NCBI GenBank assembly: GCA_018902545.1
Contig: JAHIQM010000011.1
Location: 1 to 64,000 of the forward strand
Origin: Pseudomonadota bacterium
GTDB taxonomy: Bacteria > Desulfobacterota > Desulfovibrionia > Desulfovibrionales > Desulfomicrobiaceae
DNA: 64,000 nucleotides
Reading direction: 5' to 3'
Part shown: positions 3,978 to 64,000 of the stretch, piece by piece
Position numbering within the stretch: position 1 is the stretch's first letter
Layout of the letters: each line of letters begins with the position of its first letter
Made by a program: the position numbers and the translations under genes
The notes under the pieces: model-generated
Database searches by the model: none
The model's input: the letters and a program-made list of their open reading frames with translations, nothing else
What the model was told of the DNA's origin: nothing

Positions 3978-5415
3978 AAACGGTTTCTCCCCGCAGTACT
4001 GAACCGGACGGAATCACGGCCTGGCTGGAGCCGTTGTTGACTAGGCGCACGTCGCCCAGGCAGCCCACGTTATCCTCGAAACGGACATCACCCTCGATGA
4101 CGAGGCTGTCGCATTTGATCAGGGACGGCGGGGTGGGGAAGCGATCCAGAAACATGTCGATCTTCTTGTAGAAATTTCCGTCCAGCGAGATGGACGGCAT
4201 GGTTGTGGTGCGCACCGGGTTGGGCACGATAGTTTCGCGCTCCGTACGCACGAAGCAGTCGGACATGACCAGCAGCAGGTCGTTTGTGGTCTTGACCGGG
4301 GCGAAGCGTTTTCTGGGCACGATCACCGCCTGGGCATTGAGGAAATTGGTGATCGCCGAGCCCATGGCCGTTTCCAGCTGAAAGACCTTGGGGGAGGACG
4401 GGTCGCGCGGGTCCAGATTCTTGGGGTTGATGATCAGGTCCAGTGGCATCATGCGGTGCGACACGAATACGGACTGCAGAACGCGCAGGTCGATCCAGAT
4501 GGAGTTGGTGTTGAAGAACTTGTATTTTTCGATGTCGCAGAAGGATTCCATCTCGTTGTCCGGGCACTGGGCCACCTCGCGCAGGGCGAGCTGTTTCTTT
4601 TGCTTGAGGCGGCAGAGGTGTCCGCCTTTCTTGTCCTGCTCCGTGCGCCGGGCCACTTCCATCAAAAAGGGCAGCTTGTGGTGGACCATGTAGCCCAGCA
4701 AACGGCGGTTCATGATCGCCCCGAGATTGTCGGAATTGGAGATGAATGCGTAATTGTAGCCCTTTTCCAGCAAGGCGTCGAGAATGCCCGAGGTGATCAT
4801 GGCAGTATAGATGTCCCCGTGGCCGGGCGGGTTCCATTCCAGTTCCGGGTTCTGCGGCCAGGAGGCCGGGGTATGGTCCGTGGCCATGATCTTGGGGTAG
4901 CGGTGCTGCAGAAAGGCCAGGTCGATGCCGGTGGTGCCGTTATGGAAATCTCCGACTTTGAGCATGGTGTCCATGTGCGTCTTGAAGCTGTTCATGAACA
5001 CCTGCGGAAACTCGACCCCGTAGTGGGTGCGCACGGTCTTGGCCTGCAGCAGGATCAGATCCAGAAAGCTCAGCCCATCCTTGACCGGAATCAGGGATTT
5101 GGCGGACTCCAGGCCCATGCTGGTGCCCAGGCCGCCGTTGAGCTTGATGACTGCGGTCTTGTCCAGGGCCTGTTCTCCTTTATCCTTGAACTGGTCCATG
5201 GAATCATAGTCGGCCAGTTCCTCGTCGTTCATCGCCAGAACGTCCCGGTCCGAGAGCTTGCCCTGGGCGCCGTAGAGAAATTGGTTGAAGTAGCATTTGA
5301 AGGTATTGATGACGATGGGCGGCAGGCCCTGCTGCTCCATCTTCAGGGCGAAGGGACGGAAGAGATTGGACAACCTGGGGTCGTCGACGCTGACGCAACT
5401 GATATCCTGGGCCAT
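3970..5415 (-). CDS. UTP--glucose-1-phosphate uridylyltransferase (UDPGP family)
   Basis: KLNGGLGTSMGLESAKSLIPVKDGLSFLD and NSDNLGA motifs. Confidence 0.9.
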   Translation of the reverse strand: MAQDISCVSVDDPRLSNLFRPFALKMEQQGLPPIVINTFKCYFNQFLYGAQGKLSDRDVLAMNDEELADYDSMDQFKDKGEQALDKTAVIKLNGGLGTSMGLESAKSLIPVKDGLSFLDLILLQAKTVRTHYGVEFPQVFMNSFKTHMDTMLKVGDFHNGTTGIDLAFLQHRYPKIMATDHTPASWPQNPELEWNPPGHGDIYTAMITSGILDALLEKGYNYAFISNSDNLGAIMNRRLLGYMVHHKLPFLMEVARRTEQDKKGGHLCRLKQKKQLALREVAQCPDNEMESFCDIEKYKFFNTNSIWIDLRVLQSVFVSHRMMPLDLIINPKNLDPRDPSSPKVFQLETAMGSAITNFLNAQAVIVPRKRFAPVKTTNDLLLVMSDCFVRTERETIVPNPVRTTTMPSISLDGNFYKKIDMFLDRFPTPPSLIKCDSLVIEGDVRFEDNVGCLGDVRLVNNGSSQAVIPSGSVLRGETVFA

Positions 5416-5555
5416 GGAGGCTCCTTGTTAGGCTTGGGTTCGTGATCGCAAATGCTTGCCGCGAGGGATTGGTCGCGGTTGAGTAAGAAGCATAGTGCAT
5501 GTGGCTCAATTCGTCCATAATAGCGTGGACCGTATGAGGAAATATTTTCGAAAGT

Positions 5556-7022
5556 CTACAGAGGGTCGCTCGCGTGCCCGCCACGCCCGTCTTTGTCGGC
5601 TTCGAACGCCCCGCCGCATTTGGGCATGGAAATGGCCAGTCTCAACAGAGAGGCGGACTGTTCCATGCGCAGGTGTCCTCCGATGCGTTCGACCATGCGC
5701 AGGCACATGGCCAGGTTCATCTCCGTGTCTTCGAAGGGCATGATGAGGCGGTCATGGTCGGCGGGCGGCGTGCATACGGGTGACATGGATACGTTGACAT
5801 GGACTAGGGAGCCTGATTCCGAGGCTGTGACGTGGAGAATACCGGATTCTTCGACGAGGTCGGCCCCATGCCCGATGAGATAGATAAAGATGCGGTAAAG
5901 GAATTCCTGGTCGGCCAGTATCGGTTCGAGACTGTCGCTCAAGTCGATGCGGCAGGTGATCGATTTGCGCGCCAGACGACTTGACAGGAGCTGCATGACG
6001 AAATTCACGGTGGGCGACAGATGGCAGCAGACGAGGGTGAGGCCGATTGGTTCGAGGTAGGCGTCGATCCGCTCGAGCAGTCGTTCGAGACGGTTGCATT
6101 CCTCCAGCATGATTCTGGTTTCCGTGGCTTCGGGGTAGCGGCTGCGCAACTGCCGGGCGAAGCCGCCCAGAGCGACCAGAGGGTTGCGGATCTCGTGCGC
6201 CACCTCTTCGGTCATGGCGCGCAGCATGCTGAGTTTTTCGTTCTGCAGCAGGAGGCTGTCAATATAGGAGTTGCGGGTCATGTCCGTGATCATGCCCTCC
6301 ACCCGGGCAGGCAATCCGTTTTGTGCCTTGGAAGCGGCGATGGACTGGGCCGACAGGGAAACGGGATAGCCCTTCTTGTGCAGAAACCGGAACCCGAAAT
6401 GAAGCTCGGCAGCTTCGGGTCCGAGGCTATTTTTCAGCGCATCCAGGAAACGTCTGCGGTCTTCGGGTACGATGCGGCGCAGGAAGGAGCGCGGCGATGA
6501 AAGGATTTCCTGCGGGGTGTACCCCAGGATCTGTTCCGTGGTCTGGTTCAGGAACTCGAACTGCAGATCGGAGTTGATGATGAAGATGATGACCGGCAGT
6601 TTCTGTACCAGCCGCAAGAGGTGGTCCTGGGTGTTGCGGACGTGCCGCTGCAGGAGGGACTGGGACAGGCAGTTGCGCAGTCCGTTTATAAATACGTCCA
6701 TGCTTGCGATGGGCTTGGTCACATAGTCCCATGCCCCGGATTTGAAGGCGTCGATGGCAAAGCTGATGTGCGTGTGCGACGATACGATGATCACCGGTAT
6801 GGACGGTCGTTCCATCTTCATGTCGCGCAAAAGTTCCATGCCGTTGTCGCCGGGAATCCCGAGATCAAGGAGCACCAGATCCGGAGCCTGATTCCGGAAA
6901 AGGCGTATGGCCAGATCGGCGTCGGCCGCCTCGATGACCTTGAAATTCGCCGCCTCAAGGTTTCGGGCCAGATCCGCCCGCAGGGGCTCGTCGTCTTCGA
7001 TGATCAGGATGGACTGGGGCAT
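5556..7022 (-). CDS. Response regulator receiver-PAS-histidine kinase hybrid
   Basis: MPQSILIIEDDEPLRADLARNLEAANFKVIEAADADLAIRLF receiver start; PAS; H-box EEVAHEIRNPLVALGGFARQL; start moved from 7310 to ATG 7022. Confidence 0.8.
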   Translation of the reverse strand: MPQSILIIEDDEPLRADLARNLEAANFKVIEAADADLAIRLFRNQAPDLVLLDLGIPGDNGMELLRDMKMERPSIPVIIVSSHTHISFAIDAFKSGAWDYVTKPIASMDVFINGLRNCLSQSLLQRHVRNTQDHLLRLVQKLPVIIFIINSDLQFEFLNQTTEQILGYTPQEILSSPRSFLRRIVPEDRRRFLDALKNSLGPEAAELHFGFRFLHKKGYPVSLSAQSIAASKAQNGLPARVEGMITDMTRNSYIDSLLLQNEKLSMLRAMTEEVAHEIRNPLVALGGFARQLRSRYPEATETRIMLEECNRLERLLERIDAYLEPIGLTLVCCHLSPTVNFVMQLLSSRLARKSITCRIDLSDSLEPILADQEFLYRIFIYLIGHGADLVEESGILHVTASESGSLVHVNVSMSPVCTPPADHDRLIMPFEDTEMNLAMCLRMVERIGGHLRMEQSASLLRLAISMPKCGGAFEADKDGRGGHASDPL

Positions 7023-8353
7023 GATCCCGGCTCCGTCGATGCAGGATTTTTGGGGCAGGGCAGGGTGATGTGGAAGATATTCAAGGGCGCGGCGTAGGTG
7101 TAGCCCACGCGGCCGTTGTGCAGTTCCACGATCTGCTTGACGAAGAACAGGCCATGCCCGGATCCTTCGACATTTTCCGTTGCGCTGCAGCGGAAATCCG
7201 CATCGAAAAGCTGCGGCCAATCCTGCCGGGGAATCTCGTGGCCCGTGGTCGAGACGAAGAGTTTGATCCCCGGTTGTCCGGGACCAAAAGCCTGGGGGGC
7301 GGATTCCCATCCGTACTGGACCAGCTTCTGGGTCCGGCCCGATTCCCCCGGCATGGCCACGGTGTATTTGACCGCGTTGGCCAGCAGGTTGGCGAAGACC
7401 TGGGAGATGAGCCCGAGATCGGCTTCAAGGGTGACGTCCTCGTCGATGCGTACGTCCGGTGCGACGCGGATGGTGATGCCATGGGTGCTTAGCAGCGGCC
7501 GGAAGCGCTCCAGTTGCGGCTCGAAGACTTCGCTCTTGAATTTGCAGGGACGCAGTTGCAGTTCATACCTGCCCTTTTCGAAGTGGCTGCGCCGCAGCAG
7601 ACTTTCCAGAAAGAGGCTTGAGAGCTGGAAGCGCCGGGAGATGCTTTTCTGCTTTGAGCCCAGTTCCTTGACCAGTTCCGGAAGTTCACGGCGTATATCC
7701 CGATCGGGAGAGTCGCCGCGCACGGGGACCAGTGCTTCGAGCTTGTGCGCCAAGCGTTCGATATGCTTTTCCATTTGCAGGAACAGCAGCTTGAAATGCA
7801 TGTTCGGCACGATGACGTTGTGGCCGATGTCGCGCACCAGGGAGTTGATGAAGGTCAGGCGCTGGCGGTTGCTGATGGCGATCTGTTTTACGGCCATGAG
7901 CCGGGCGGCGCTGTGGGCGTATCGCAGGTAGAAGGTTTCCTCGGCGGGATCCAAGTCCTTGTGTAGACAGAGGACACCCAGCAGCTTGGGCTCCGGACCA
8001 GGTTCGCAGATAAAAACAGCGCTTGCGCCTTGAAGACGGATCACGGATTCGGGGGCCGGGCAGACCGGTTCGGGAAAGGTGAGCAGCGCGTTGCCCTGGA
8101 TATTGGTGGTCCGCCGCAGTCGCAGCGTGCCCTTGGGGCCGCGCATGTACAGGGACGCGGCAGTGCCCAGGCAGACGTCGGGCACAAGCACGCACAGCGA
8201 TTTGAGGTCGCGCAGCGACTCGAATTCAAGGCCTGTTTCATAAAGAAGGGTCAGCGCGGTACTGCGCATCGTGTGGTCGTCGCCGTGGGCAGAGGCCAAG
8301 CGTTCGAGAAGGTGGGCTTTGAGATGCTTTCGGTCGTGGGGCGGGGGGGGCAT
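7004..8353 (-). CDS. Sensor histidine kinase (GAF-like plus HATPase)
   Basis: HATPase features (FANLLANAVKYT, GSGHGLFFVKQIVELHNGRVGY). Confidence 0.75.
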   Translation of the reverse strand: MPPPPHDRKHLKAHLLERLASAHGDDHTMRSTALTLLYETGLEFESLRDLKSLCVLVPDVCLGTAASLYMRGPKGTLRLRRTTNIQGNALLTFPEPVCPAPESVIRLQGASAVFICEPGPEPKLLGVLCLHKDLDPAEETFYLRYAHSAARLMAVKQIAISNRQRLTFINSLVRDIGHNVIVPNMHFKLLFLQMEKHIERLAHKLEALVPVRGDSPDRDIRRELPELVKELGSKQKSISRRFQLSSLFLESLLRRSHFEKGRYELQLRPCKFKSEVFEPQLERFRPLLSTHGITIRVAPDVRIDEDVTLEADLGLISQVFANLLANAVKYTVAMPGESGRTQKLVQYGWESAPQAFGPGQPGIKLFVSTTGHEIPRQDWPQLFDADFRCSATENVEGSGHGLFFVKQIVELHNGRVGYTYAAPLNIFHITLPCPKNPASTEPGSCPSPS

Positions 8354-8412
8354 GGTTCATCCTGGGTCGGTGTATTTCACTCCCGCATAGCCCAGGATGA
8401 ACCCTCCTGCAA

Positions 8413-9981
8413 TCAGGGTTTGCGCGGTTTGGTCCGCCCGTCGTATTTTTTGGGATCGAGGTTGTACTTCTTGATCTTGTAATTGATGATCCGGTAGCTG
8501 GCTCTCAGCTCCCTGGCCACCTGCAGCATGTTGCCGCCGCATTTCTGCAGCGCTTCGACCAGGATTTCCTGCTCGAACTTGCCCACGGCCTCGCCAAAGG
8601 AGAGCTGGTTGTCCGTGGCCGAGCTTTCCGCCGTCTGCAGGGTCGGGGGCAGGTGATAGGTGCGGATGGCTTCCTCATTGCAGATGAGCGCGGCGCGTTC
8701 CATGCAATTGCGCAGTTCACGCACGTTTCCGGGCCACTGATACTGGGTCAAGAGGTCGATGGCGGGCATGGAGATGCGCTTGATGTTTTTCGAGTACTCC
8801 TTGGCGAAGAATTCCAGGAAATATTCGGCCAGGGGCAGGATGTCTTCCCGGCGTTCCCGCAGGGGCGGGATGAAGATGGGGAAGACGTTGATGCGGTAAT
8901 AGAGGTCTTCGCGAAACTGACCGGATTTGATCAGGTTTTCCAGGGGCTGGTGAGTGGCGCAGATGATGCGCACGTCGACCTTGATGATCTTTTCGCTGCC
9001 TAGGCGCTGAATTTCCCCTTCCTGCAGGGCGCGCAGCAGCTTGGACTGGGCCTCGGGGCTCAGTTCCCCGATTTCGTCCAGGAACAGGGTGCCACCATGG
9101 GCCAGCTCGAAGCGACCCTTCTTGGTGCCCACCGCGCCGGTAAAGGCCCCGCGTTCGTGGCCGAAGAGTTCGCTTTCCAGCAGTTCCGACGGCAGGGCGG
9201 CGCAGTTGAGGCGGATGAGGGTCTTGGAGCGCCGGGAACTGGCGTTGTGGATGGCCTCGGCCAGAAGCTCCTTGCCTGTGCCCGACTCGCCGCGCAGCAG
9301 GACCGAGGCCTTGCTTGAGGCGACCTGCATGATCTGGCCCATGACAAAGGCCATGGCCTTGGACGTGGCCACAATCTTGGCCTGGGCCATGGCGGTGTCG
9401 CGATCCAGACTCTCGCCCAGAAAACCCATGGACGCCCACAGCTCCTTCTGGGCCATGTTTTCCTGCAGATATGCGGTCTGTCTGGCGATGACAGCGGCCA
9501 GAACCTCCAGAAAGGAACAGTGGACCTGCAGCACCTCGGTGGGTTGGCAGGGGATGTCCGCGCTCAGAACACCAAGGGCTTCCTGGGCTCCGTCCGGGTT
9601 GATCCTGGTGACTGGCACGCAGATGAAGGACAGTTCGGCGAGCTCTTTTTGGGTCCGGCCCATGGCCTTGTTCAGGAACCGCTCATCGTGCTCCATGGCT
9701 GCGACGATAATGGACTTGCCGCTGTCGAGAACCTGTCCGGTCACTCCCTGGCCCGGCATGTATGTGGCCTTGACGGGCCCCTTGTGTCCGTAGGTGAGGT
9801 CGAAGCGGATGGTGTTCGCTTTGGGGTCGAAGATGGCCAGGGCCATGCGCTTGTACTTCATGGCCTCGGCGGTCATGCCCAGAAGGTTGTCCAGGCTCGA
9901 TTGCAGCGGGCTCAAGGGGTCGAGGTGCTGTAACGTGGTTTGCAGCGTGTTCAGATAATGCAGGAATTCGTCGGTCAGCAT
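8413..9981 (-). CDS. Sigma54-dependent transcriptional activator, GAF-AAA-HTH (NifA-like)
   Basis: [21 protein letters not shown] loop ([19 protein letters not shown]), C-terminal Fis-like HTH; start set at ATG 9981. Confidence 0.9.
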
Positions 9982-55433: not shown

Positions 55434-55620
55434 GTCCTTTTCAGCGCTCCCCCAGCGACCTGCGTTTTGCGCCAGTACCTTGGCGGAAAGAATCCGGGTG
55501 CGGCGTATCCATTCTGTCACGTTCCCGTCATCATTTCTCGACATTTTCCGCGCAAAAGGCGTCTACGGCGCTGTAGAACAACTTCGCCTGTCATCCACAA
55601 ATCTCTGACGCAAGGTGCTG

Positions 55621-57672
55621 ATGCTCATGGGAAATACTCTCGGATTTCAGACCAAACTCTCCGTTGTCACTATCGCCATCGTCCTGGTGACGGTTCTGTG
55701 TCTCACGGTTTCGCAGTTCTATATGGCCAACAAGGACGCCCTGCGCCAGGGAAGGGATGGGCTGAGCAGTATTTCAGCCACGCTGGCCGAGTCCGTGGCC
55801 TTGCAGCACTCGCTGATGCTGAACAAGATCCGCATTGACCGGGACATCATGAAAACCCAGTTCGAGCTGAGCGGATTTCCCGTGCCCGAAGTGCTCATGG
55901 AATTGGACATGGAGATTTTTGATCAGGACGGCGGCGAAGCGGAGGTGCGCGTCATCTCGGCTATCAAGCACGGTGTCGCCTACTTGCACGAAGGCAATTC
56001 GGTCATGCGCAAGGTTGCCGAGCTGACCGGCGGCGTGGCCTCGGTGCTTCAGGTTTACGAGGACAGGCTCGTGCGCATATCGACCTCGCTGGAAACGCCG
56101 CAGCCGGCCTGGGGCAAAGGTTCATATATCGGGCCTGATTCGCCGGTGCTGGCCGCCGTGCTGTCCGGACAGACTTGGGAGGGGATGCAGTGGCTGGGGG
56201 GCGCGTGGCGCATGACGGCCTATGTTCCGTTCACGGAGCTCAACGACGGCAGGATCATCGGGGCACTGGAAATTGCCCATCCGCTGATCAGCGATGCATT
56301 TTCGGATTTCGTACGCAATGTGCGCATCGGCGACCACGGCGGAACTCTGGCTTTCGATGCCCAGGGCAGACAGATCGTCGATCTGCCTGAAGTCCGCGAA
56401 GAAGCGGACACCATTGTTCAGGCCGGCAATGGCGTCAGGCACAGGACTCTTCTGACCCCAGACGGCAGGCATCTGGAGGTGTCCCTGCACACCTTTGAAC
56501 CGTGGAACATGACTTTTGCCACCTGGGTCGCCACCGAGGACCTCATGGCCGGGGTCAGGGAAAGGCTGGTCAGAAATTCGCTCCTGAGCACGATCCTTCC
56601 GCTGGCCTTGTCGGTGATCCTCATCGGTGTGGCCGGGCGCGTTCTCATGGCCCCAGTGCGCCGTATGGCCGGATTGGCCGACGAGGTGGCCGCAGGGAAC
56701 TACACCGCGACCATCGTTTACCCGGCCCGTGACGAAATCGGACATTTGGCCGAATCCCTGAACTCCATGGTTGCCGGTAGCAGGGAAGTGCTCTCGGAAA
56801 TCGCCCTGGCGACCAAATCCCTGTCCGGGGCATCTTCAGAGCTTGGCACCATTTCGCACGCCTTGTCCGACAACTCCGCCGGGACAGCCCGCAGGGCCGA
56901 GGCCGTGCATGAGTCGGCCAGGTCGGTGAGCGGGAACATGCATTCCGTGTCGGCGGCAATGGAGCAGACCACGCTCAGCGTCGGCAGTGTGGCCGCATCC
57001 GCGTCGGAACTGGCAGCGACCATCGAGGGCGTGGCTCAGAGTGCGGGCCTCGCCAAACGAACAACCTCGGACGCCGTGATCAAGGCCGGGGAGACCACGC
57101 GCCACATGGAGCAGCTAAGCCGGGCCGCCAAGGAGATAAGTTCCGTGACCGCAGTCATTTCGGCCATCTCCTCCCAGACCAACCTTCTGGCCTTGAATGC
57201 GACCATCGAAGCCGCCAGGGCGGGAACCGCCGGCCGGGGCTTCGCCGTGGTCGCAGGAGAGATCAAGGAATTGTCCCAGCAGACCTCCGCCGCCACGGAA
57301 AACATCCGCCGCATGGTCCTCGCCATCCAGAACGTGACCGACGTCACCGCCAGGGAGATTGCCGAGACCATCAACGTCATCGAGGAGGTGAATGACATCG
57401 TCATCTCCATCTCTGAAGCCATGGAAGAACAGACCGTCATGACCCGGGATATTTCGGAGAACGTGAGACAGGCCGCGCAGGGCATCTGTGAGATCAACAC
57501 CAACGTCACCTCGGGCACCGTCATGACCCGCGAGATCAGCGACGAGATCGAGGGCGTGCTGAACGCTTCCACGGTCATGCAAAAGGAGAGCAAGGTGGTG
57601 CTGGACCGAGCGCAGGGGCTGGCCGAGCTGTCCTCGCGCCTGCAGGACCTCGTCGGCCGTTTTCGCTTCTAG
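55621..57672 (+). CDS. Methyl-accepting chemotaxis protein
   Basis: Periplasmic sensor, HAMP, TNLLALNATIEAARAGTAGRGFAVVAGEIKELSQQ. Confidence 0.92.
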   Translation: MLMGNTLGFQTKLSVVTIAIVLVTVLCLTVSQFYMANKDALRQGRDGLSSISATLAESVALQHSLMLNKIRIDRDIMKTQFELSGFPVPEVLMELDMEIFDQDGGEAEVRVISAIKHGVAYLHEGNSVMRKVAELTGGVASVLQVYEDRLVRISTSLETPQPAWGKGSYIGPDSPVLAAVLSGQTWEGMQWLGGAWRMTAYVPFTELNDGRIIGALEIAHPLISDAFSDFVRNVRIGDHGGTLAFDAQGRQIVDLPEVREEADTIVQAGNGVRHRTLLTPDGRHLEVSLHTFEPWNMTFATWVATEDLMAGVRERLVRNSLLSTILPLALSVILIGVAGRVLMAPVRRMAGLADEVAAGNYTATIVYPARDEIGHLAESLNSMVAGSREVLSEIALATKSLSGASSELGTISHALSDNSAGTARRAEAVHESARSVSGNMHSVSAAMEQTTLSVGSVAASASELAATIEGVAQSAGLAKRTTSDAVIKAGETTRHMEQLSRAAKEISSVTAVISAISSQTNLLALNATIEAARAGTAGRGFAVVAGEIKELSQQTSAATENIRRMVLAIQNVTDVTAREIAETINVIEEVNDIVISISEAMEEQTVMTRDISENVRQAAQGICEINTNVTSGTVMTREISDEIEGVLNASTVMQKESKVVLDRAQGLAELSSRLQDLVGRFRF

Positions 57673-58811
57673 TCCGCAGGTTCCAGACGCAGAAGCTGGC
57701 CCGGATCGTGGTCCGTCAGCAGCCAGAGGTTCCCGTTGGGACCGACCCGTACGTCGCGGATGCGCAGCCTGAGGCTCTCCAGCAGTAGCTCTTCCTCGAC
57801 AACCACGTCTCCGGACAGTTTCAGGCGGGCCAGATGGCGGTGGGCGAGGGCGCCGACAAAGAGATCTCCTTTCCAGCGCGGAAAAGCATCGCCGATGTAG
57901 AAGGCCATGCCCGAGGGGGCGATGGACGGAGTCCAAGAGTGCAGCGGGTCATCCATGCCCGGCATGTGTTTGAGTCCGTCGCCGATGGTGAAGCCTGTGT
58001 AATCGATGCCCAGGGTCACCACGGGCCAGCCATAGTTGGCACCGGGGCGGATGATGTTGATTTCGTCGCCGCCACGGGGGCCGTGTTCGTGAGTCCAGAC
58101 TTCCCCGTTTTGCGGATGCACGGCCATGCCCTGGGAGTTGCGGTGTCCGTAGCTGAAGATTTCGCTCCACGCGCCTGACTCGCCCACAAAGGGGTTGTCT
58201 TCGGGGATGCGGCCGTCATCATGGATGCGGATGATTTTTCCGGCGTGGTCATCAAGCTTCTGGGCGCGCCCCATTTCCCCCCGGTCGCCTACGCTGATGT
58301 ACAGGAATCCCTGACCGTCAAACGCCAGCCTGGATCCAAAATGCACCCGGCCTGAAGAAGCGGGTTCGGCCTTGAAAAGCACTTCCACGTCCTTGAGCGC
58401 GTCGCCTTCAAACCTGCCACGGGCCACATGCGTGGTCACCCCGGAGCCGAAGTTGGCGGCGTAGCTGAAGTACAGGAGCCGATTGGCTGCAAAGTCCGGA
58501 TGCGGCAAGAGATCGAGCAGTCCGCCCTGGCCCAGGGCCCTGATCTGGGGCAGCCCCTGCACGGAGCCTGGCAGCAGAACCCCGTCGCGGATTATGCGCA
58601 GTCGCCCCGGCCGTTCGCTGACCAGGATGTCGCCGCCGGGAAGAAAGGCGAGGGCCCACGGATTTTCCAGCCCGTTGGCCACGACGGTCAGGCGCATCGT
58701 GTGCTCTTTGGATGCGAATTCTCGGGCCGATGCGGGCGCGGCCGCAAGGATCAGCATCAGGGCGGCGGCATGAATGAGCAGGGTGCGAAAAATGATGGTG
58801 GACGTGTACAT
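57669..58811 (-). CDS. PQQ-dependent sugar dehydrogenase (aldose sugar dehydrogenase-like)
   Basis: GLENPWALAFLPGGDILVSERPGRLRII; NSQGMAVHPQNGEVWTHEHGPRGGDEIN. Confidence 0.88.
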   Translation of the reverse strand: MYTSTIIFRTLLIHAAALMLILAAAPASAREFASKEHTMRLTVVANGLENPWALAFLPGGDILVSERPGRLRIIRDGVLLPGSVQGLPQIRALGQGGLLDLLPHPDFAANRLLYFSYAANFGSGVTTHVARGRFEGDALKDVEVLFKAEPASSGRVHFGSRLAFDGQGFLYISVGDRGEMGRAQKLDDHAGKIIRIHDDGRIPEDNPFVGESGAWSEIFSYGHRNSQGMAVHPQNGEVWTHEHGPRGGDEINIIRPGANYGWPVVTLGIDYTGFTIGDGLKHMPGMDDPLHSWTPSIAPSGMAFYIGDAFPRWKGDLFVGALAHRHLARLKLSGDVVVEEELLLESLRLRIRDVRVGPNGNLWLLTDHDPGQLLRLEPAD

Positions 58812-58891
58812 ATTGCCTCCTGTCACGGGTCTGTATGTCGCCCTCAGCCTTCACCGGCAAGGATTCCGGGCGAGGAGTTGTCAAAAAAGGA

Positions 58892-61800
58892 CTAATGCCC
58901 CGGCCATTCAGCGCCACCCAGAAAGTCATAACCGACTTTTCTTTGCAGCGATTCGATCTGAAGAAAAGCCTGTTTGAGCATGGCTTCATCCATATTTCCG
59001 AGTTCGTTCAGCACAATGCTGTTATCGAGTGGTCGGTCTTCCTGGATGGCATTCAATTGCGCCTGAAAGCGCAGCCGCATCATAAAATCATACGAGGCAG
59101 ACACTGCGTCACAAGCGGCAGGCTGCAATACTTTTTTCCAGACCAAAGCCTCTATGCGTTCCATGGAATGGGTATACGGGAGTTTGTGTTTGAGTGCATA
59201 CAGCCTGCCGAAACTGATGAGGGGCATCAGCGTTTCCTTCATGTTCAGACGCCCGGCATCCTGCGCAGAACCGCTGCTTTTGATGATTCTGCCCAAAAGC
59301 CTGAATGGCGGCTTGAAGAGCAGTACGTTCTGCGCCAGATGAGGAAAAAAGCTGGGGCGACCCTGCAACTCCTTGTATATGTGTATGCGGAGCTTATCGG
59401 CCAACTCGGCGTCGCCGTATACGGCCCTGAAATCAAGACAGATGCTGAAATCCAGGATTTCCTTGGGTTCGGCTTTCGTGATCCAGGCCGTGAATTTTTC
59501 TTTCCATTTCGGTAAGGAATGGCACCATTCAGGGTTGTTGGCCATGACCAGACCATCGCACAGGGCATAGCCGGCCTGGTCCAGCCAGTGGCAGACCCGC
59601 TGGCCCATGGAGAGAAAATACTCTTTGAGCAGTTCCGCGGAGGCATCACTCTGCTCGTAGATGATGGCGTTGTCCTGATCGGTCAGCAGGGTCTGTTCCT
59701 GACGCCCCTGGCTGCCCATGGCGATAAATGCAAAAGCCGTTGGCGGCGGGCCGATTTCCTCCACGGCAAATTCGATGAATCGGATCGTCGCCGCGTCGCA
59801 CACGGCGGTGGTCATATAGGCCACGGTACGCGGACGGGCTCCGGCTTCGATCAGTGCCCGGACCAGGGCTGTAGTACGATGGCAACATTGCAGCACCTGT
59901 TCCACGGAAGTCGCCCGGGCGATTTCACGGGGCAATACTTCCGGGCCGTAACGGTGAAATTGCAGTAAATTCTTTGCTCGAACCACACTTTTGATCTGTC
60001 CTCCGCCATCGTGCACCACCAGGTGCTGGACCTTTTTTTCCTCCATGAGCATCAGGGCTTCATAGATCATGGCATGTTCGGAGATGGTCACAAGGGGCTG
60101 GCTCATAAAGGTTCTGACAGGGACCTGCATATCCGCCTCCGGCTTTCCGGCCAGCCTTTTGCGGAAATCACGGTCGGTCAGAAACCCGGCCCCTTCTCCC
60201 GCATCGTTTTTGACCACAATGGACGTTGTGTCGCGTTCTACCATAAGGGATGCGGCCTCATGGACAGGCGTGTCCAGATGGCAGGATACGGGCTCGCTTC
60301 CCAGTTGCCCGACGGGCTCCTGGAGAAAGAGCAGGGATACCCGCAGTTTTTCGATCAGCGTCTCCCGTTCGCGTTCCCGCCGCACACGGTCAGTGACATC
60401 GGAAATGACGCAATTGACGGTGGCCGGTTCGCCAAGTTGTTCGGGAGCAAGGACCGCCGACAACGAAAAGGTGCGCATGATCCCGTCGTTTCCGAGTTTT
60501 TGGATCATCCGTTCCAAAGGCGTTTCGGTCCGCCGCAGATCTTTGTTGAACAGGTTGAACTCTTCGCCATCATCAAACAGATCCTCGAGAGCAAACCGGT
60601 CGTCCTTGGTCGGGGATATGCTCTGGAGCAGCTGCAGGGCAGGGGCGTTCATGGCCATGATCACTCCCCGTCGCTCGGCCTTGGCCAAAAAAATGCCAAT
60701 GGCAGCAGCCTGTGCCGCCTGGCCAAGCTTGATGATGGACCCGGCTTCCAGCACCGAGGGGTGAATGTCCTTGAGCAGGACGATGAGACCGGGCAGTCCG
60801 GCCAGGATCATGGGGTTCAGGGTGACAAGGCACTCCCGTTTCTCTCCGTCTGCCCGTTCAAGCATGGCTTCAAAACTTTTCGACCCGGCGGCGCCGGTCT
60901 GCAGGCTTTCAATATGCGCCCAAACCTGCGCGTTGAATGGCTCGTGAGGAATGAGATCCGCCAGTTCCAGCAATTCGAGCCTGTCGGCGGTGTAGCCCGT
61001 CAGGTTCAGGGCGGTGGGGTTGCCGTAACGGCACCGTCCGCCGAGGACCAGAAGGGATCCTTCGGTAGTAGCCTCAATGAGCGTGCGGTAACGCTGTTCG
61101 GCCTGCTGCAGGTTGGTCTGCATGTCCCGGCGTTTTCTCTCCATGGACAAGACCTGCCGGACATTTGAGAGCAGCACGGCGAAGACCAGCGCGACAATAC
61201 CCACCAGAAGATACACTATGTTCTGTTCGATCCGCTTTATTTCCAGCTCGACATCATCGATGTACATGCCGGTGCCGATCACCCAGCTCCAAGGCTTGAA
61301 ACCACGGACATAGGACTCTTTGGCAGCCATTCTCTCCGGGTCGTCCTTCCACTGCCAGACATACTCGACGAAACCCTCGTCCTGCTGGCGAACGATCTGT
61401 GCAAACTGGACAAAAATTCTGACCCCGCGCGGATCGGTGAAGTCGGACACGTCTTTGCCGTCCAAATCCGGCCTGTAGGGATGCATGAGCATCTGCGGTT
61501 GCAGATCCTGAATCCAGAAATAATCTTTACCGTCTTTCCCGTAGCGCAGGGACTGGATATTTTCCTTGGCCTTTTGCTGGGCTTGTTCGCGGCTGAGCAG
61601 TCCTGCCCGTTCTTCCCGCTCTGCCGTTGCGAGCAGGCTGAGCGCGGTGTTGGTCAATTCCCGGATCATGTCCCGTTTGCGGTCCACCAGTGTCAGTTCG
61701 ATGGTCGGGAGCAGCATGCCCCATATCGACACGATGAACAGCACAATGGCCAGCAAGGAGGGCAGAATGATCCGGGGAGGAAACGACGACCAGCGCCGCT

Positions 61801-62596
61801 GTGTATCTACGCTTTCAAGATCCTCCTCGTCGCTGATGTCATCAAGGAGCGGAGCCGCCTGTCCGCCTGAAGCCCCCATGGCCCGCACCAGGCGTTTCCA
61901 ATCGTCAAGAGGCATATCAACGCCAAGTACGGCCGTGTCGGCTTCCACACCGTGGAAATCAGTGCCCGCGCAGGCCAGCAGTCCAAGATCGACAGCCAAT
62001 TCCCGGAGCATCCCATTTTCACCGGCCGCGCCGTGGGGACCGGTCACTTCGATGCCGTCCAGCCTCAGGCGTTGCAGATCGGTGACGAGGGCGCGCAGAT
62101 CGTTGGGCTCAGTCTCATATGCCAGGGGATGGGCCAAAAACGCCAGTCCGCCAGCGCGATGCACCAAGGCGATGGCGTCCTGTGTATCGATCTTGCCTGT
62201 TTCCGCCACCCCAGGTGCGGGATCGGCCAGCAGCTTCGGGGCCTGGAGCTGGGAGGGCATGCGCCGCAGGGGGCCCTGATGCCTGGAGATGCGGTCGTGG
62301 CGCAAGACCTGCAATGTTGTGCGGAATTCCAAGTGCTGTGGATCGAAGCCATAGGCCAGAATATGTATTTCGCGGCCGTGGAATTGCGTAGAGATTTCCG
62401 TACCGGACAGGAAGCCGATGTTGCGTCGTTTCAGCGCCGTGTGAAACCGGTTCAGACCTTCTATGGAATCGTGGTCGGTCAAGGAGGCATAAACCACACC
62501 GGCCGTGGCCAGACGGTCGGCCAGAACTTCGGGGCTCAGTTCTCCGTCGCTGAAATGCGAATGACAATGCAGGTTGACGCGAATGCTCGTGGTCAT
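58892..62596 (-). CDS. PHP phosphoesterase-TM-Cache_2-TM-PAS-CBS pair-DUF294 nucleotidyltransferase fusion
   Basis: NLHCHSHFSDGE, LTDHDS, AHPL, GTDFHG (PHP); DYFWIQD...WSWVIGTGMYIDDVE (sCache); PAS; CBS pair; AMGSQGRQEQTLLTDQDNAIIYE (NTase); start set at ATG 62596. Confidence 0.85.
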   Translation of the reverse strand: MTTSIRVNLHCHSHFSDGELSPEVLADRLATAGVVYASLTDHDSIEGLNRFHTALKRRNIGFLSGTEISTQFHGREIHILAYGFDPQHLEFRTTLQVLRHDRISRHQGPLRRMPSQLQAPKLLADPAPGVAETGKIDTQDAIALVHRAGGLAFLAHPLAYETEPNDLRALVTDLQRLRLDGIEVTGPHGAAGENGMLRELAVDLGLLACAGTDFHGVEADTAVLGVDMPLDDWKRLVRAMGASGGQAAPLLDDISDEEDLESVDTQRRWSSFPPRIILPSLLAIVLFIVSIWGMLLPTIELTLVDRKRDMIRELTNTALSLLATAEREERAGLLSREQAQQKAKENIQSLRYGKDGKDYFWIQDLQPQMLMHPYRPDLDGKDVSDFTDPRGVRIFVQFAQIVRQQDEGFVEYVWQWKDDPERMAAKESYVRGFKPWSWVIGTGMYIDDVELEIKRIEQNIVYLLVGIVALVFAVLLSNVRQVLSMERKRRDMQTNLQQAEQRYRTLIEATTEGSLLVLGGRCRYGNPTALNLTGYTADRLELLELADLIPHEPFNAQVWAHIESLQTGAAGSKSFEAMLERADGEKRECLVTLNPMILAGLPGLIVLLKDIHPSVLEAGSIIKLGQAAQAAAIGIFLAKAERRGVIMAMNAPALQLLQSISPTKDDRFALEDLFDDGEEFNLFNKDLRRTETPLERMIQKLGNDGIMRTFSLSAVLAPEQLGEPATVNCVISDVTDRVRRERERETLIEKLRVSLLFLQEPVGQLGSEPVSCHLDTPVHEAASLMVERDTTSIVVKNDAGEGAGFLTDRDFRKRLAGKPEADMQVPVRTFMSQPLVTISEHAMIYEALMLMEEKKVQHLVVHDGGGQIKSVVRAKNLLQFHRYGPEVLPREIARATSVEQVLQCCHRTTALVRALIEAGARPRTVAYMTTAVCDAATIRFIEFAVEEIGPPPTAFAFIAMGSQGRQEQTLLTDQDNAIIYEQSDASAELLKEYFLSMGQRVCHWLDQAGYALCDGLVMANNPEWCHSLPKWKEKFTAWITKAEPKEILDFSICLDFRAVYGDAELADKLRIHIYKELQGRPSFFPHLAQNVLLFKPPFRLLGRIIKSSGSAQDAGRLNMKETLMPLISFGRLYALKHKLPYTHSMERIEALVWKKVLQPAACDAVSASYDFMMRLRFQAQLNAIQEDRPLDNSIVLNELGNMDEAMLKQAFLQIESLQRKVGYDFLGGAEWPGH

Positions 62597-62784: not shown

Positions 62785-64000
62785 TCAGTCGGTGTCCGGC
62801 CTGTGGGCCTGGGCCAGGAATTCTTCGGCATTTCTTCCGGTGTCGGAGGTCATCATGGTCACCACCAGCAGCATCAGAGAGGATGCGACCACACCGAAAA
62901 GGCCGGGACCGCCGCCCACGGGCAATCCGAGAATGGTAAATGCGGGTCCCTTGGCGAAAAGTAGGACGATAAAGACCACCGAAACGCCAAGCCCTGTGAG
63001 GATACTGGCGATTATGCCCTGACGGGTTGCGCGCTTCCACCACAGCGTGGCGAGCATGGCCGGGAAGATTGCGCTGGCCGCGATGCCAAACGCGAGCATG
63101 ACCAGCCAGGCGATGTTTTCATCCTTGAGCAGGACCGCCAGTGATACAGCGATGGTGGACATGAGCAGCGTGGTGATCTTGGCGATGCCCAGTTCCTGCT
63201 TTTCCGTGGCGTTGGGGTTGATGTAGACTTTGTACAAATCGTGGCTGACCGACGATGCCACGGTTATCATGAGCCCTGCCGAGGTCGAGAGAATGGCTGC
63301 GACCGCCCCGGCTGCGCCTATGGCCATCAGCCAGGTACCGCCAACACGGAAGCTCATCTCCAGCACGGCCATGTTCTTGGCCAGTCCAACTCCCACCGGA
63401 CCCTGGGAGATCCATGTCACCAGTTGCGGGTAGATTCCGGGAAAGAGCAGAAAGCCAAGTATGATCGCACCAAGATAAAAAATGCCCAATGCGACGATGC
63501 ACAGGGCCACGCTTTTTTTGGCCGCCCTTGCGCTGGGGACAGTGAAGAACATGATCAGAATGTGCGGCAGACCGGCAGTACCGAAAACAAGGGCAATGAC
63601 TGTGCTGACCATGGCCAAGGTGCTGGCGGTTTTGACTCCGATGGTCATGGTCGTGTCGGCTTCCGGCAACATCTGTCGTGCGGTTGCGATTGCCTGATCG
63701 GCTGGCAATGCTTTGATGGCTTCGACCACGGCCGGGTCGGAAGCTGCGATAAGCGGCGGCACGGTTCGGTCAGCGATGGCCAGAATTTCATAAATCGACC
63801 CGTTGCCGACCATGAAAAAGGCCAAGGTGACCAATATGACCATGGTGCCCCAGAGGAAAAGACCCTGAATGACCTGATTGTAGAGCGTGGCCTTCATTCC
63901 GCCGAAAATGATGTAAATGCTCATCAGAATGCCCAGGCCAATGGTCACCCACACGAAATTCCATTTGAGCAACATTTCGAACAGCAGGCCGGCACCAAGC
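62785..64000 (-). CDS. Sodium:solute symporter (cation/acetate symporter-like), N-terminus beyond window
   Basis: SSS-family TM pattern; AAGAVAAILSTSAGLMITVASSVSHDLYK. Confidence 0.88.
   Translation of the reverse strand, partial: LGAGLLFEMLLKWNFVWVTIGLGILMSIYIIFGGMKATLYNQVIQGLFLWGTMVILVTLAFFMVGNGSIYEILAIADRTVPPLIAASDPAVVEAIKALPADQAIATARQMLPEADTTMTIGVKTASTLAMVSTVIALVFGTAGLPHILIMFFTVPSARAAKKSVALCIVALGIFYLGAIILGFLLFPGIYPQLVTWISQGPVGVGLAKNMAVLEMSFRVGGTWLMAIGAAGAVAAILSTSAGLMITVASSVSHDLYKVYINPNATEKQELGIAKITTLLMSTIAVSLAVLLKDENIAWLVMLAFGIAASAIFPAMLATLWWKRATRQGIIASILTGLGVSVVFIVLLFAKGPAFTILGLPVGGGPGLFGVVASSLMLLVVTMMTSDTGRNAEEFLAQAHRPDTD

Follow-up and report, generated by a model that had tools for sequence, protein, structure and literature searches.

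A widespread PHP-Cache-PAS-CBS-DUF294 fusion family, a candidate carboxylate-sensing nucleotidyl writer and eraser encoded beside acetate-type symporters

The first 64,000 nucleotides of contig JAHIQM010000011.1 (assembly GCA_018902545.1, Desulfomicrobiaceae; hereafter the window) encode a 1234-residue protein in which a PHP domain is fused to a membrane-bound Cache sensor, PAS and CBS domains and a DUF294 nucleotidyltransferase (NTase). The protein belongs to a PHP-Cache-PAS-CBS-DUF294 family that is real, widespread and, as far as the literature searched shows, undescribed. With about even confidence it is read here as a switch, contained in a single polypeptide, that senses two- or three-carbon (C2/C3) carboxylates and covalently writes and erases a nucleotidyl group, its target probably being the co-encoded transporter.

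The gene is a single open reading frame (ORF) of 1234 codons without an internal stop, running on the minus strand from an ATG at 62596 to a stop at 58892. The order within the protein is PHP, transmembrane segment, sCache_2, transmembrane segment, PAS, CBS pair, DUF294 NTase and DUF294_C, and all Pfam matches exceed the curated cut-offs (two CBS stretches from amino acid (aa) 767 onward; other positions in Table 1). A preliminary description, made from the sequence alone, had proposed this uninterrupted frame and, within it, two transmembrane segments around the Cache domain followed by PAS, CBS and DUF294; both proposals were upheld by ORF reading, Pfam domain search and hydropathy. Every motif that it quoted (HCHSH, TDHD, GTE, AHPL and GTDFHG, and GSQGRQEQ...TDQD) was located in the protein. 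Because two hydrophobic segments bracket the Cache domain, and positive charges directly after the second segment agree, the topology is consistent with the Cache domain lying outside and the PHP, PAS, CBS and NTase domains inside. The region between the PAS domain and the CBS pair shows a weak likeness to PAS_4 in one homolog, below the curated stretch threshold, and may thus hold a second PAS domain.

A scan of 85,462 species genomes returned 59 loci, at 54 of which PHP accompanies the rest of the protein. Over fifty homologs have identities of 34–57%, most of them full length, and the majority of the 59 loci align end to end with the domain order unchanged, although the CBS pair is missing in some members (L143, L128). 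According to record labels, these homologs occur mostly in Anaerolineae (Chloroflexota) and also in Armatimonadota, Omnitrophota, Acidobacteriota, Spirochaetota, Planctomycetota, Verrucomicrobiota, Myxococcota, Gemmatimonadota and others, a dozen or so phyla in all. Nearly all loci derive from metagenome-assembled genomes (MAGs) and several are cut by contig ends. The preliminary description had considered the joining of PHP to DUF294 unusual; the architecture is that of a widespread family and not a one-off, although no paper assigning a function was found. Literature searches combining DUF294 with PHP or Cache, or with DUF4212 and an exonuclease, returned nothing relevant beyond a domain survey. 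The same description had itself cautioned that a sequencing error might have joined two genes. Nothing was found in favour of an assembly artefact or accidental joining, and dozens of independent homologs sharing the architecture leave this explanation practically no weight; homologs in dozens of other loci likewise show that the fusion is not private to this genome. Three loci (L109, L119 and L136) were rejected as cases of separate PHP ORFs, being frameshift or assembly-gap cases, and L145 was rejected as a family member, being a chemoreceptor.

The closest relative of the fusion is found in a Desulfobacteraceae MAG (L116, 57% identity). Apart from the window genome, no genome scanned at the level of family (22), class (349) or phylum (396) had a PHP fused in this way, and horizontal acquisition is therefore likely; their PHP proteins, about 300 aa long, stand alone, like the one on contig C5 of the window genome. 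For the family as a whole, the patchy distribution suggests one old fusion spread by horizontal transfer. The PHP domains of the fusions form one clade separate from 23 free-standing PHPs (support 100/100), and their NTase domains also group together, with support that is moderate (93/92; 90% of bootstraps); the PHP-less row L142 falls inside this group. L142 is a Solibacter protein (L142:1124-3970) with a Cache-PAS-CBS-DUF294 arrangement; as the contig extends only about 1.1 kb upstream of it, a separate PHP gene may lie outside, and the case carries little weight. In L138 (Eisenbacteria) and L141 (Gemmatimonadota), PHP is a gene of its own with its own stop codon, and the gene for the remainder, from Cache to DUF294, begins at a 4-bp GTGA or ATGA overlap with it. 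As the two parts are split into overlapping genes here, PHP appears from the gene layout to be a partner that can be encoded separately, comparable to the exonuclease described below. At another locus, in a Clostridiales MAG, the SSS and PHP-fusion genes have an extra free-standing PHP-like gene upstream of them (L143:2152-2934, starting MHDLHIHTHHSCDSK).

An SSS symporter gene lies upstream of the fusion gene on the same strand, its start being located beyond the window edge. An SSS gene of the acetate/monocarboxylate type is present at 45 of the 54 family loci and a small DUF485-like gene at 36. In this the family resembles the SSS-linked CBS-DUF294 operons, in which the same NTase with DUF294_C and a CBS pair is encoded alongside an SSS symporter and a small subunit of the DUF4212/DUF485 type. 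Examples of these canonical operons are pp_0354/pp_0353 of Pseudomonas putida, the actP cluster on a P. aeruginosa plasmid (L161) and a locus on contig C18 of the window genome. Canonical CBS-DUF294 proteins have a soluble, cyclic-nucleotide (cNMP)-binding input and a separate DEDDh exonuclease, whereas the fusion has a Cache/PAS input across the membrane, a fused PHP as putative remover and no exonuclease. An exonuclease gene stands alongside at 27 of 32 canonical loci but at none of 39 PHP-fused loci (Fisher's exact P = 7e-15, a value in which shared ancestry overstates independence). The 27 comprise 11 of 12 annotated plasmid loci, 15 from relatives of the window genome and the C18 locus, and the 32 also include four ActP-type loci without exonuclease and one Skermanella locus. 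A hidden Markov model (HMM) built from 12 operon exonucleases found none, up to E = 1, at the 39 PHP loci whose flanks both exceed 1.5 kb, nor at the window locus, and an overlooked exonuclease was thus rejected. No stand-alone PHP gene was found in canonical loci L147-L163 or in the relatives' loci L033-L057. As exonuclease and PHP are mutually exclusive beside the NTase, the simplest reading of these gene contents is that PHP took over from the exonuclease as NTase partner.

The window genome holds both forms in one cell: on contig C18 (L151), the genes for SSS (7675-9462), cNMP/CBS-DUF294 (5710-7671) and exonuclease (4982-5773) are all on the minus strand. Among its relatives, L152, L153, L154 and L155 have CBS- or plain DUF294 genes beside symporters, with neither exonuclease nor PHP nearby. 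In alphaproteobacterial operons L148, L156, L157, L158, L159 and L162, the exonuclease is enlarged to about 464-662 aa and begins with a membrane-like region; in these operons the membrane sensor may therefore belong to the eraser and not to the writer.

The nine metal ligands of the PHP domain are identical in all 45 alignment rows that cover all nine. The AlphaFold model of this domain, which like that of the NTase is confident (mean pLDDT 89), best matches RNase AM (7ug9, E 1e-16) and CV1693 (2yb1). In both of these enzymes an insertion domain over the active site binds the 5' phosphate and base (PMC9410882). The fused PHPs share with RNase AM (YciV) and the nucleoside bisphosphate phosphatase CV1693 the PHP barrel and the same nine ligands, but differ from them in this region. 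Ligands H78 and H156 are spaced 41–80 residues apart in the fusions, compared with 114–116 in 28 of 29 free-standing PHPs; an equivalent of the phosphate-contacting R201 of RNase AM is not conserved, and the position paired by spacing with R110 is mostly acidic. The fused PHP also scores far below the NCBIfam equivalog cut-offs of RNase AM and nucleoside 3',5'-bisphosphatase. By these alignments the cap with which free-standing PHP enzymes bind their substrate is missing from the fused PHP, which is therefore not an intact RNase AM/pAp-phosphatase module. An ordinary RNase AM fused by chance was rejected, as the fused PHPs form one clade and miss the cap. Loss of the cap would leave an open site suited to a bulky substrate.

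In the NTase domain, G961, S962, R965, D973, D975 and D1055 are identical in 47/47 covering rows and E967 in 47/48. DUF294 and DUF294_C with an intact GSxxRxE...DxD, the trait of SSS-linked CBS-DUF294 nucleotidyltransferases, are thus present in the fusion. Sequence search alone found no solved relative of this domain. Its AlphaFold model (mean pLDDT 94) has as best PDB matches protein adenylyltransferases, namely DrrA and both halves of Escherichia coli GlnE, the adenylyl-removing and the adenylylation domain (1v4a, 3k7d). GlnE, the glutamine synthetase adenylyltransferase/removase, is among the closest solved folds to the NTase with its C-terminal domain, but it has two NTase domains and neither PHP nor a membrane sensor; the fusion has a single NTase domain and scores 17.1 bits against the GlnE family PF03710, below its cut-off of 24.

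The sensor can be compared with Pseudomonas syringae PscD, which binds acetate, glycolate, propionate and pyruvate via a seven-residue pocket (PMC5062169). In an alignment with 5g4y, the PscD propionate contacts correspond to Y359, W361, H372, F395, Y412, W414 and K426 of the fusion protein, where all seven are identical, as they are in the family with one exception at H372. Given this conservation, the Cache ligand is very likely a C2/C3 monocarboxylate, and such a predicted ligand matches the adjoining acetate-type transporter gene. The single-Cache chemoreceptors PscD, McpP and Adeh_3718 share all seven pocket contacts; their Cache domain drives chemotaxis signalling domains, whereas that of the fusion would drive enzymes.

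In the proposed mechanism, the outer Cache domain would bind acetate, propionate, glycolate or pyruvate, and this signal together with intracellular ones received by the PAS and CBS domains would set the balance of the two cytoplasmic active sites. The GlnE-like NTase would attach a nucleotide, probably adenosine monophosphate (AMP), to a partner and the capless PHP phosphodiesterase would take it off. The likeliest partner would be the SSS symporter encoded alongside, or the small membrane subunit of that symporter, with ligand favouring removal and hence uptake, so that uptake is tuned to supply. In the usual module the remover would be the separate DEDDh exonuclease, for which PHP has here been substituted and fused to the writer. 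That a ligand-sensing protein with both enzymes in the cytoplasm adds and removes a nucleotidyl group had been suggested in the preliminary description. This is the best-supported reading because the active sites are conserved, the NTase is GlnE-like, the carboxylate pocket is kept and PHP replaces the exonuclease; we infer the catalysis, the nucleotide, the direction of control and the target. Its most specific form, in which extracellular acetate-type acids are read and AMP is added by DUF294 to switch the SSS transporter off and removed by PHP to switch it on, is held only tentatively and is considered less likely than not.

Published genetics of related operons bear on the proposed mechanism. 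In P. putida KT2440, pp_0354 (CBS-NTase) and pp_0353 (exonuclease) constitute one operon, a target of the acetate regulator MxtR/ErdR (CrbS/R); deletion of pp_0353 slows growth on pyruvate, like deletion of actP-I, and deletion of pp_0354 is without effect (PMC9927547). By our own reinterpretation these phenotypes fit an NTase that turns ActP off and an exonuclease that turns it back on: in such a model, loss of the eraser would mimic loss of the transporter and loss of the writer would be silent. For the related Pflu5625, regulation by nucleotidylation has been suggested, and its deletion barely affected growth on acetate (PMC5715377).

Several points weigh against a nucleotidyl switch on the transporter. 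No measured activity or target for any DUF294 protein was found in the literature searched, and the genetic evidence was obtained in a distantly related system whose remover is of another kind. Because the loci share ancestry, 27/32 versus 0/39 represents fewer independent events than the counts suggest; neither an exonuclease nor a PHP gene lies near five of the canonical CBS-DUF294 loci, and five family loci with upstream sequence have no SSS neighbour. Furthermore, the closest PHP enzymes of known activity act on nucleic acids or small nucleotides rather than on nucleotidylated proteins, and the same holds generally for DEDDh exonucleases. This shared substrate class (PMC9410882) would suit a nucleotide messenger cycle, in which carboxylate prompts the NTase to make a free nucleotide or short oligonucleotide that PHP (in canonical operons, the exonuclease) degrades. 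Such a cycle is considered unlikely, although it is the strongest of the alternatives: the NTase fold is nearest to protein adenylyltransferases, with no significant match to a messenger synthase (CdnC at E about 1), a receptor for the signal is not evident in the operon, and PHP, having lost both the cap and an equivalent of R201, is left without most of its nucleotide pocket.

It is less likely still that the NTase adds nucleotides to the ends of messenger RNA (mRNA) or tRNA of carbon metabolism, to be trimmed by PHP or exonuclease. Decay of mRNA was the explanation put forward in the P. putida study (PMC9927547), a proposal that counts both for this alternative and against a transporter switch; in addition, RNase AM degrades RNA as a 5'-3' exoribonuclease, the RNase_T family consists of 3'-5' exonucleases, and other polymerase-beta NTases, such as MenT, are reported to tail tRNA. 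PHP and DEDDh enzymes, however, work from opposite RNA ends, so that one and the same 3' addition would not be reversed by both; Pfam showed no RNA-binding domain in the fusion protein, and the membrane anchoring of an RNA enzyme beside one transporter gene is hard to motivate. Lastly, the two enzymes may not be antagonists at all, PHP hydrolysing an unrelated phosphoester or by-product and the fusion merely co-localising functions. A common substrate does not follow from fusion or neighbourhood, and five canonical loci cope without any recognised remover; the strict swap of one phosphodiesterase for another beside the same NTase and the split, overlapping PHP genes nonetheless speak for a linked role and make this reading improbable.

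Two further known proteins with a similar combination of domains can be compared with the fusion. GlnD, the bifunctional uridylyltransferase/uridylyl-removing enzyme, likewise combines a polymerase-beta NTase, a metal phosphodiesterase and sensor domains in one chain; it is soluble, has HD and ACT domains and modifies PII. Neither HD nor ACT gave a Pfam match in the fusion, which thus shows GlnD-like logic in a different protein. PolX, a DNA repair polymerase without a sensor, joins a polymerase-beta-superfamily NTase to a C-terminal PHP; in the fusion PHP is N-terminal, there is no Pfam match to DNA polymerase X and the fold match is weak.

CBS-DUF294 proteins are commonly encoded beside symporters of the acetate type and regulated together with acetate use, and no biochemical function for them was found in the literature searched. 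The fusion family indicates that their NTase is accompanied by a dedicated phosphodiesterase, whose fold can differ, and it links the two to a defined extracellular ligand pocket, with putative writer, eraser and sensor in one expressible chain. If the proposal is true, reversible nucleotidylation of a transporter would join the known bacterial controls of carbon uptake, the writer-plus-eraser design of GlnD would have been re-invented from other parts on a membrane transporter, and the role of the whole SSS-DUF294-exonuclease operon family would be explained.

Table 1. Features of the fusion gene and its upstream neighbours (window positions unless marked as contig)
Feature	Position	Strand	Basis
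PHP-Cache-PAS-CBS-DUF294 fusion gene, 1234 aa	58892..62596	minus	ORF reading, Pfam, full-length homologs
Putative PHP phosphodiesterase domain (aa 1-245), capless, nine metal ligands intact	61862..62596	minus	Pfam (aa 9-78), alignments, model
First transmembrane segment (aa 276-297)	61706..61771	minus	Hydropathy
sCache_2 sensor (aa 305-456), predicted extracytoplasmic, putative C2/C3 carboxylate pocket	61229..61684	minus	Pfam, PscD contacts
Second transmembrane segment (aa 459-478, approximate)	61163..61222	minus	Hydropathy
PAS domain (aa 502-611)	60764..61093	minus	Pfam
CBS pair (about aa 767-880)	59957..60298	minus	Pfam; missing from some homologs
DUF294 nucleotidyltransferase (aa 907-1045), catalytic residues intact	59462..59878	minus	Pfam, alignment, model
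DUF294_C helical domain (aa 1082-1225)	58922..59353	minus	Pfam
SSS acetate/monocarboxylate-type symporter gene, first transcribed, runs off the window	62785..63999	minus	Pfam; contig 62785-64539, 584 aa
77-aa hydrophobic ORF preceding the SSS gene	contig 64500-64733	minus (as fusion)	

Downstream of the fusion gene, a glucose/sorbosone dehydrogenase-like gene (57669-58826, minus strand) is convergent with a chemoreceptor gene (55615-57672, plus strand). The chemoreceptor, two genes downstream of the PHP fusion, has a Cache_3-Cache_2 sensor.

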